A stretch of DNA of 33,444 nt from an uncultured Clostridia bacterium (GTDB lineage: Bacteria; Bacillota; Clostridia; Oscillospirales; Ruminococcaceae), in NCBI GenBank assembly GCA_947588775.1, contig CANPZQ010000002.1, forward strand, positions 1 to 33,444. Direction: 5' to 3'. Position numbers and translations under genes: made by a program. The notes under the pieces were generated by a model. The model was not told the origin of the DNA and made no database searches. It saw only the letters and a list, made by a program, of their open reading frames with translations. Below are positions 29,834-32,363 of the stretch, piece by piece (within the stretch, counting starts at the first letter, position 1; each line of letters opens with the position of its first letter).

Positions 29834-29865
29834 CAAAAATAACCCCCTTCGGGCGAAGGGGGTAA
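29834..29865 (-). terminator. Intrinsic terminator of dockerin-protein gene
   Basis: Minus strand ACCCCCTTCGCCCGAAGGGGGTTATTTTTG. Confidence 0.75.
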
Positions 29866-29869
29866 GCTT

Positions 29870-31588
29870 TCAGGAGAGGCCGGCGAGAATTTTTTGCATC
29901 GCCACGCCGTCGGAAACGTCAACCACGCCGTTGCCGTCGAGGTCGGCGGCGGAGGTAATCGGCTCAAGCCCGGCGAGCATTTTCTGCATAATTACGCCGT
30001 CGGAAACATCGGGCTTGCCGCCGGAGTTGTTGAGGTCGCCGGGGCGGGTTGGCCGTGTGCTGTAACCACACCAGATACATGCGTCGTCAAGCATTGTATG
30101 CGCGCCTTCGGCGAAGGTATCGCCGCAAACATCGCATATTGCATAATGTGCATTTTCGTCTTTTACCCATCTTACAGAGCATTCTTCCCAATCGCTTTGC
30201 TGTTCTCCGCAGATTGAGCAGCATTTATAGTGTACTCCTACGAGTGCGTTTAAAACTTCTATATTTCTATAAGCGTCGGAATTGCATTCGTGCTCGGGAT
30301 AAGTATACCCGCACTCCGTGCAGCTATTGCCGACAAAATCATGCACTCTTACCCAATAAGCACCGCAATCTGCACATATTCCGCTGTGGCTTATGAAATC
30401 GATTGATTGCAGGTTAATCAGGTTATGGCTTTCGGTCTTTTTATAACCGCAAATAACACAGGTAGCATTATGCTTATAATCTTCTTCAATATCCTGAACA
30501 TAATTATCATACACATGTTCATGCGAAGCATAAGCAGGATTTATATATTCACAGCCGCCGCAAGTGCCGTCGGAATAGAAATAATGCTCTTTGGGTTCTG
30601 TATCATAATCGCAGCCGAAGTAAGGCGAATCGCATTGAGAGCAGGTATAATAATGCATCGTTTCGTTATAGTCCCTTGAATTACGATTATGAGTATGCTT
30701 TTTCTGATTTAACCCTTTGAGAGCACCGCAAACCCTGCAAACGCTGTTGACAAATTCATGCGCCTCGTAATCAATGTCTTGTCCGCAGAAGCATTCGCGC
30801 CAGTGATACTGAGTAGTCCAGTTGTACCATCTCGGATCACGTCCGTCGCGTGAATCAATTCCCGAACTAAATGAGGCATTACTGCAATCACCGCAAGTAT
30901 GAGTACATATAACCGCAATAGCAGTGTCCGGAATATCTCCCCTATAGTATTCATAGTTAAATGAAATTTCCCAAGTGCCGTCAGATAGAAGAATAGAATA
31001 TTCGTCCGACCATTCAGGGTCTTGCGAAAGTTTGACATACCCGTAATTATATTTTCTTGCTACACTTTTAATCTCATCTTCGGACATTTCTTCGGAAATG
31101 CCTTCCATCGGGGATTTAATATAATCGCTTACAACGACTGTATGCCCGTAATTTCTTGAACCGTCAAACATAACTACGTTTGAAAGATAATTATTTAAGT
31201 CAATATATTCACCATATTCAGGGTAAATTGATGTCTGACCGGCCAGAATATAATTTTCAAGGTCATTGGGCGCGTATATATAAAAAAGTAAAGATACATA
31301 CCCACCGTCGCCGCCAAGAGGTGCTTCAATAAGGGTTTGCGGGGTAATTATGCCGTTTACGCCGGAATTGGGTCTTGTATCTGCAAACGTTATACCGTAA
31401 AAACTTGCACGATAATAAAATCCTGCGGCGGTGACAGACTGTTCCAGCTCGGGAAGTCGCTTGCCGATACTGTCAGCGGCATTTAACGTGGGTGTTGCCT
31501 GCGGAGCGACAAAGCCCCATGCGTTCACACCGACTGTTATTACCGCAACAGTCACAAGAGCTGTTAATAATGCCAAAATTCTTTTCAT
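29870..31588 (-). CDS. Secreted Cys-rich (CxxC-repeat) protein with C-terminal type I dockerin-like domain
   Basis: Signal peptide MKRILALLTALVTVAVITVGVNAWG; repeated H..F....C..CG motifs; C-terminal PGDLNNSGGKPDVSDGVIMQKMLAGLEPITSAADLDGNGVVDVSDGVAMQKILAGLS; RBS AGGAGGAAAAATTATG. Confidence 0.88.
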   Translation of the reverse strand: MKRILALLTALVTVAVITVGVNAWGFVAPQATPTLNAADSIGKRLPELEQSVTAAGFYYRASFYGITFADTRPNSGVNGIITPQTLIEAPLGGDGGYVSLLFYIYAPNDLENYILAGQTSIYPEYGEYIDLNNYLSNVVMFDGSRNYGHTVVVSDYIKSPMEGISEEMSEDEIKSVARKYNYGYVKLSQDPEWSDEYSILLSDGTWEISFNYEYYRGDIPDTAIAVICTHTCGDCSNASFSSGIDSRDGRDPRWYNWTTQYHWRECFCGQDIDYEAHEFVNSVCRVCGALKGLNQKKHTHNRNSRDYNETMHYYTCSQCDSPYFGCDYDTEPKEHYFYSDGTCGGCEYINPAYASHEHVYDNYVQDIEEDYKHNATCVICGYKKTESHNLINLQSIDFISHSGICADCGAYWVRVHDFVGNSCTECGYTYPEHECNSDAYRNIEVLNALVGVHYKCCSICGEQQSDWEECSVRWVKDENAHYAICDVCGDTFAEGAHTMLDDACIWCGYSTRPTRPGDLNNSGGKPDVSDGVIMQKMLAGLEPITSAADLDGNGVVDVSDGVAMQKILAGLS

Positions 31589-31617
31589 AATTTTTCCTCC
31601 TATACAAGATTATTTAC

Positions 31618-31647
31618 ATTATACCCCCCCCCGAGCATTTTTGTCAA
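31618..31647 (-). promoter_or_regulatory. Consensus promoter with 9-G homopolymer in spacer (candidate phase-variable promoter)
   Basis: Minus strand TTGACA AAAATGCTCGGGGGGGGG TATAAT, 18-bp spacer. Confidence 0.85.
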
Positions 31648-31688
31648 CCCCATTTCCCCCTTTTCTCAAATTATTTCAACAAAATCTC

Positions 31689-31717
31689 TTGACAAACACT
31701 ATATATGGTGGTATACT
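31689..31717 (+). promoter_or_regulatory. Sigma-A promoter for pyrR-uraA
   Basis: TTGACA-N17-TATACT. Confidence 0.75.
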
Positions 31718-31774
31718 TTTATCAATCTTTAACATGCGGTACAGTGATGCCGATAAGACGGGATATTGCTTTTG

Positions 31775-31808
31775 GCCTTACCGCACTGTGGCGCGATAGG
31801 GCTTTTTT
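31775..31808 (+). terminator. Leader terminator/attenuator upstream of pyrR
   Basis: GCCTTACCGC-ACTGTG-GCGCGATAGGGC-TTTTTT stem-loop plus T6 just before the pyrR RBS. Confidence 0.6.
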
Positions 31809-31844
31809 GGAGGGGTTGAAACGGACAGGCTGATTGAAAAAGCC

Positions 31845-32363
31845 GTGCTGATGGACGAGGGAGCCGTTAAACGCGCCCTTACTCGCATCTCGCACGAGAT
31901 TCTTGAAAAAAACAGGGGCGCGGAAAATATCTGTCTTGTGGGGATTCTGCGGCGCGGCGCAGCCCTCGCAAGGGTCATCGCCGACAATATCCGCGCTTTC
32001 GAGGGCGTTGAGGTGCCATGCGGCGACATAGACATAAGCCACTACCGCGACGATATTCATGCCGGCGCGCCGGTGCTTAAAAAGGCGGAGTTGCCGTTCT
32101 CGGTTTCCGGGAAAAAGGTTATCCTTGCCGACGACGTTCTCTATACCGGAAGGACCGCCCGCGCGGCCATCGAGGCTGTTTTCTCGCTCGGACGGCCCGA
32201 CGCGATTCAGCTTGCAATCTTAATTGACCGCGGCCATCGGGAGCTTCCGATTCGCGCGGACTATGTCGGAAAAAATATCCCGACTTCGCACAGCGAGGTT
32301 ATAAACGTGCTGATTCCGCCGTATGACGGAGAAACGGCCGTTAAGCTGATGGAAAACGGGTAA
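31845..32363 (+). CDS. pyrR: PyrR bifunctional pyrimidine operon regulator/uracil phosphoribosyltransferase (start codon uncertain)
   Basis: DEGAVKRALTRISHEILEKNRGAENICLVGILRRG...VILADDVLYTGRTARAAIEAVFSLGRPDAIQLAILIDRGHRELPIRADYVGKNIPTSHSE. Confidence 0.95.
   Translation: MLMDEGAVKRALTRISHEILEKNRGAENICLVGILRRGAALARVIADNIRAFEGVEVPCGDIDISHYRDDIHAGAPVLKKAELPFSVSGKKVILADDVLYTGRTARAAIEAVFSLGRPDAIQLAILIDRGHRELPIRADYVGKNIPTSHSEVINVLIPPYDGETAVKLMENG

Follow-up and report, generated by a model that had tools for sequence, protein, structure and literature searches.

A candidate slippage-tuned promoter with a nine-G spacer tract before the gene of an exported, dockerin-like protein in an uncultured Clostridia bacterium

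Introduction

Can a run of guanines lying between the two boxes of a perfect promoter set, by slippage during replication, how much of an exported protein a Clostridia cell makes? The question is raised by a locus in a draft metagenome assembly of an uncultured bacterium (1.94 Mb, 193 contigs, 96% complete), from which we analysed a stretch of 33,444 nucleotides, hereafter the window. In Neisseria, the unstable homopolymers that lie between the -10 and -35 boxes of porA, fetA and opc are believed to change how the sigma factor binds (PMC2791445), and the opc homopolymer gives graded expression (PMC2791445, PMC3960869). In Helicobacter canadensis, G tracts that vary in length among reads lie in the putative promoters of genes for surface or secreted proteins (PMC2823697), and replication slippage in a G tract controls a surface structure, the pili, in the gut commensal Bifidobacterium breve (PMC9187656). 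A 2025 review counts among the major open questions the apparent confinement of multi-locus phase-variable genomes to pathogens, for which database bias is a possible reason (PMC11868660). A preliminary description of the window had proposed a phase-variable promoter of the porA kind, and here we weigh that proposal by comparison with related and distant genomes.

Results

Promoter and gene at the locus

Read on the minus strand, positions 31647-31618 are TTGACA-AAAATGCTC-G9-TATAAT, with a spacer of 18 bp, which is one base from the 17-bp optimum. The -35 box (31642..31647, minus strand) and the -10 box (31618..31623, minus strand) both match the consensus in full. Between them lie a fixed 9-bp spacer part, AAAATGCTC, which ends in C (31633..31641, minus strand), and the nine-G homopolymer (31624..31632, minus strand; C9 on the plus strand), which is the proposed slippage site and directly adjoins the -10 box. 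The poly-G of Neisseria porA likewise directly adjoins its -10 box, and a homopolymer between -35 and -10 is a feature of porA, fetA and opc alike. The pair of boxes around G9 is the sole 12/12 promoter match within 28.5-32 kb, and it is followed by an AGGAGG ribosome-binding site (31596..31601, minus strand) and the ATG of the controlled gene at 31588; direct reading confirms each of these elements as first described. The assembled count of nine G could be off by one. Rfam gave no match in the promoter region of the gene. An invertible promoter was considered and rejected, as no inverted repeats of at least 9 bp were found in 31580-31760.

The controlled gene (29870..31588, minus strand) is an open reading frame for a protein of 572 residues that begins with a signal-peptide-like segment, MKRILALLTALVTVAVITVGVNA, and contains many CxxC motifs; neither Pfam nor NCBIfam has a family that covers the protein. 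A dockerin-like domain with duplicated Ca-binding loops (GDLNNSGGKPDVSDGV...ADLDGNGVVDVSDGV) lies at the C-terminus (29873..30052, minus strand). The last 60 residues are 49-68% identical to the C-termini of ten proteins from the same genome and from a sister genome, G028, and the aligned segment holds two Asp/Asn-rich loops. Scanned alone, three of these ten C-termini exceed the cut-off of Dockerin_1 PF00404 (23.9-34.3 bits against 22.9), and the window protein's own C-terminus gives no match to this profile at the curated cut-off. The PDB chain 5lxv_B, described as a carbohydrate-binding protein and which we take to be a dockerin of R. flavefaciens, spans both repeats (E=0.006). Because the C-terminus aligns with relatives that pass PF00404, calling it dockerin-like is fair, as an assignment by homology only. 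The initial characterization of the product as an exported, Cys-rich dockerin protein therefore stands for the signal-peptide-like N-terminus and the many CxxC motifs; the dockerin part holds by homology and lacks Pfam significance of its own. From its two ends the protein is predicted to be an exported or surface product, as in the porA, fetA and opc systems. The cohesin profile PF00963 had no match in this 96% complete genome, and its cut-off was exceeded in 22 of the 31 genomes of the genus. A terminator-like hairpin with a 9 bp stem and a T tail lies directly after the stop codon (29842..29863, minus strand), so the gene is probably transcribed alone, as a monocistronic unit.

The orthologous locus in the sister species

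Divergent from this gene lies pyrR (31845..32363, plus strand; an NCBIfam equivalog), encoding the pyr operon regulator/uracil phosphoribosyltransferase, which served as the synteny anchor and is followed by a uracil permease gene. Its promoter, TTGACA-17-TATACT (31689..31717, plus strand), has ordinary spacing. In G028, whose pyrR is 87% identical to that of the window, the divergent arrangement is kept, together with the pyrR promoter and leader, and at the same position TTGACAAAACATGTC-G9-TATAAT, also with an 18 bp spacer, drives a dockerin protein. Between the two orthologous loci the G tract is retained and the remaining spacer bases have changed. A clear pyrR ortholog was present in 12 further genomes, none of which showed a G-tract promoter beside it. 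Fourteen genomes share a conserved block within the pyrR leader (31722-31845, plus strand), CGGCATCACTGTACCGC when read on the minus strand, which is probably an attenuator or a PyrR site; Rfam gave no match in the leader.

Recurrence of the arrangement

In the source genome, 43 G tracts are nine bases or longer. Four of these run straight into TATAAT, and three of the four have TTGACA upstream, for which the expectation with random flanks is about 3e-5 (43 x 10/4096 x 1/4096). The search was extended to draft metagenome assemblies, one genome per species, with genome-wide counts based on pattern searches and fetched regions. In the genus, a pattern of TTGAC, at least eight G and TATAAT, which permitted spacers of about 16 to 41 bp, gave 15 matches in 10 of 31 genomes, all of them at spacers of 17-20 bp, and the order gave 18 matches in 10 of 396 genomes. 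Since the reversed pattern gave 0 matches in both searches, the arrangement is not due to chance. In an even sample of the phylum the pattern occurred in only 2 of 399 genomes (reversed pattern, 0); the perfect form is accordingly rare overall but enriched among the relatives of the window. Patterns with C tracts in place of G between the boxes gave 0 matches.

The layout also occurs in Clostridia, Bacilli, Saccharibacteria, Spirochaetes, Streptobacillus and Helicobacter, scattered and mostly in gut bacteria, and the matches include a cultured isolate, Hydrogenoanaerobacterium saccharovorans An564. Viral contigs gave only two matches, so the arrangement is not mainly a phage device. Separately, similar tract promoters of the form TTGACAAAATCC-N3-C-G9-TATAAT were seen in three species (L063, L068 and L071, in G010, G022 and G000, the last being the source genome). 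None of them lies near an evident start of a coding sequence, and Rfam gave no match for them.

Spacing of tract promoters

In 149 of the 151 tract promoters collected, the tract adjoins the -10 box. Spacers range over 14-21 bp. A spacer of 17 bp is present in 10 of the 151, compared with 42 of 61 ordinary perfect promoters in the DNA fetched (Fisher p ~3e-20, for sequences that are not all independent). Most of the 151 were collected with at least eight G required, so that selection sets the lower end of their length distribution. Among the ordinary perfect TTGACA/TATAAT promoters listed for the source genome, the spacer is 17 bp in 76 of 98 and 18 bp in 5 of 98. In Clostridia the fixed flank measures 7 bp or 9-10 bp, almost never 8, and together with the usual nine G this gives a spacer of 16 or 18-19 bp, not 17. 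A single optimum shifted by the twist of poly-G was rejected, as it fails to explain modes on both sides of 17 bp in Clostridia. These spacings suggest that tract promoters are usually off their optimum and that slippage would yield the strong state.

Tract length in homologous promoters

That tract length should differ across relatives had been put forward as a check on slippage, and length does differ between near-identical or homologous promoters; the window promoter and its G028 ortholog are both G9. In front of a second, paralogous dockerin gene of G028, G10 and TACAAT (19 bp) come after exactly the same 15 bases, TTGACAAAACATGTC, and the two paralog promoters of that genome are one G apart, G9 and G10. 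The G10 promoter is preceded, some 80 bases further upstream, by another tract, ACC-G11-TATAAG (L275). Switching of all dockerin genes was rejected as a general rule, as tract promoters stand before two of the G028 dockerin genes examined and ordinary promoters before several others. One other genome carries ATGGCACTCC-G9 and ATGGCACTCC-G10, and another carries GATGTTGACC-G10 and GAAGTTGACC-G9 before paralogs.

Three paralogs in genome G302, 60-65% identical to one another, have G9 with 15 bp, G10 with 16 bp and G11 with 18 bp, and a fourth tract promoter there has G10 with 17 bp (L239, L241, L242 and L243, with spacers of 17, 15, 16 and 18). The genes behind three of the four encode exported, paralogous proteins that belong to no Pfam family. 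Judging by promoter context and a protein common to L106 and L243, G302 appears to be H. saccharovorans An564. A lipoprotein family found in six species of the genus (27-94% identity) is split evenly between G7 tracts with 16-bp spacers and G9 tracts with 18-bp spacers, three species each. This family, of unknown function, has a G-tract promoter before every copy (L257, L258, L259, L229, L067 and L069). The G028 paralogs, the lipoprotein family and G302 thus share with porA, fetA and opc a difference in tract length between homologous promoters.

Products of the controlled genes

Among promoters with a credible downstream open reading frame, a strongly hydrophobic N-terminus, called by a simple heuristic and not by a trained predictor, follows 96 of 123 tract promoters (78%) and 10 of 35 ordinary perfect promoters from the same DNA (29%; Fisher p = 2e-7). 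A Pfam scan of 111 downstream proteins found no single family; BspA-type LRR was the commonest, with nine, and other named domains were InlB B-repeats, Ig-like domains and collagen repeats.

Other G-rich elements

The idea that every long G tract here is a switch was rejected, because most tracts of at least nine G in the source genome belong to an interspersed inverted-repeat element, approximately GCGCGGCGGAGAAAGCGGGG...Gn...CGACGCA-NN-AGCTTTCTCCGCCGCGC. Some two dozen copies (loci L194-L233) were seen, including C11:24030-24050, C31:6899, C121:5643 and C112:4700, and their poly-G cores are 9 to 44 long and differ greatly between copies. A separate multicopy intergenic element of ~170 nt has a perfect TTGACA-17-TATAAT promoter with TGGGG before the -10 box, conserved stem-like segments and a T-rich 3' end, ...GGCGGTTATTTCTTTTT. 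It has no open reading frame and no Rfam match, occurs in G001, G002, G006, G009, G014, G025, G027, G029 and G030 (for example L246, L247, L249, L251 and L265), and is a candidate small-RNA family.

Discussion

The candidate porA-kind promoter has come through the comparative tests: the arrangement recurs, its reversed control gives 0, the tract is placed at the -10 box, lengths differ, spacers avoid 17 bp and the cargo is exported. We consider it probable, at roughly 0.77, that the window promoter undergoes slippage-driven, graded transcriptional phase variation of the porA/opc type, with the tract acting as a contingency locus in the core promoter. Under this mechanism, the G9 tract would lie inside a sigma-70/sigma-A core promoter, and slipped-strand mispairing at replication would gain or lose one G and shift the distance between -35 and -10 base by base. 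The assembled length, G9 with 18 bp, would give intermediate strength, and the promoter would be strongest at G8 (17 bp), after loss of a single G; it would be weak if at least one G were gained (19 bp or more) or several were lost (15 bp or less). Such a promoter would behave as a rheostat and not as a clean on/off switch, and a clonal population would be a mix of cells with differing amounts of the exported, Cys-rich, dockerin-bearing protein. Switching at the window promoter itself, meaning a change of length within one population with expression following length, is what we infer from these comparisons. Loss of mismatch repair as the driver of long tracts is not supported, because MutS is present in the genome; slippage would accordingly not be raised by a repair defect, which is a point against the mechanism.

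A G run upstream of the -10 box might instead be a favoured promoter or regulator-binding feature of stable length, in which slippage is incidental. GGGG beside TATAAT is indeed common in the genus without being prone to slippage, with 72 of 77 G4 promoters (four G before the -10 box) at 17 bp and many of those examined driving a multicopy non-coding element; moreover, CCCC was never found before the -10 box in the genus, and C precedes the long tract in 101 of 145 tract promoters. A fixed element, however, should keep the 17 bp of the G4 type, and tracts of at least six G in the genus have spacers of 14-20 bp, with 17 bp in 1 of 18. Tract length also varies between homologous promoters, and a constant role leaves the bias towards exported proteins unexplained. 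We regard this static reading as rather unlikely. Against the mechanism we prefer, 18 bp occurs in 5 of the 98 ordinary perfect promoters, so that G9 might just give steady, moderately strong expression; the overall rarity of the exact pattern and the lack of a tract promoter beside pyrR in 12 further genomes count against it as well.

It is more doubtful still that the promoter is an ordinary one, in which drift within a non-conserved spacer produced a tract of no regulatory effect. Such drift would fit 18 bp as a workable spacer, and poly-G of 9-44 is frequent here in the unrelated interspersed repeat, so that G runs may expand readily. Outside that repeat, however, long tracts concentrate directly upstream of TATAAT; the tract is kept at the orthologous locus despite changed flanking bases, and in the lipoprotein family down to 27% identity; and its independent recurrence, from Clostridia and Bacilli to Saccharibacteria, Spirochaetes, Streptobacillus and Helicobacter, also argues against drift. 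An artefact of assembly or sequencing, through poly-G errors of two-colour chemistry or collapsed homopolymers, seems very improbable, even for a draft metagenome assembly of 193 contigs in which some very long G runs stand at contig ends (C6, C30): the tract is internal, between intact promoter boxes, ribosome-binding site and gene, and it recurs at the orthologous locus and in independent assemblies, including that of the cultured An564.

The slippage-tuned promoter favoured here is, by its sequence-level features, likely a new case of the porA/fetA/opc type; the mechanism is known, and the hosts and the cargo are new. With Neisseria meningitidis porA it shares a coding-strand poly-G in the core-promoter spacer, a surface product and a length expected to set strength (PMC2791445). 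It differs from porA in its host, an uncultured relative of gut-type Clostridia, in its cargo, a secreted dockerin protein and not a porin, in its perfect TTGACA and in its shorter tract of nine. The opc promoter of N. meningitidis also has its homopolymer between -10 and -35 (PMC2791445, PMC3960869), but that tract is poly-C, whereas the tract here is poly-G and the genus lacks CCCC before the -10 box. H. canadensis offers a similar association of promoter G tracts with surface or secreted products, in a different phylum and with tracts 13-16 long in putative promoters, in contrast to nine within the -35/-10 spacer here (PMC2823697). The pilus switch of B. breve is likewise G-tract slippage in a gut commensal acting on a surface structure, but it is translational, with a tract that joins two reading frames inside a gene and does not lie in a promoter spacer (PMC9187656). 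Invertible promoters also provide phase variation at the promoter level in gut commensals; unlike the window promoter, which is without inverted repeats, they are binary and act by site-specific inversion (cited in PMC11868660). In the full-text literature searched, which left most subscription journals outside its scope, the promoter design is not reported for gut Clostridia or for a dockerin protein; such absence is weak evidence of novelty.

More broadly, and only tentatively, poised G-tract promoters may make up a class that has arisen convergently and recurs among host-associated bacteria, gut Firmicutes included. Their common state would lie one or two bases off 17 bp, rare slippage variants would be fully on, and each lineage would hedge its bets on many surface genes without a recombinase. 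At least three perfect G-tract promoters are present in the genome studied here, whose sister species is represented by a rabbit-gut assembly (Lapin-012 bin74), and its relatives carry more. H. saccharovorans An564, with four tract promoters at 15, 16, 17 and 18 bp, offers a cultured test organism. Because the source genome and its relatives have multiple tract promoters and the layout occurs in distant lineages, slippage-tuned promoters probably give rise to hidden heterogeneity of the cell surface in gut communities, which can be measured directly in existing metagenome reads.
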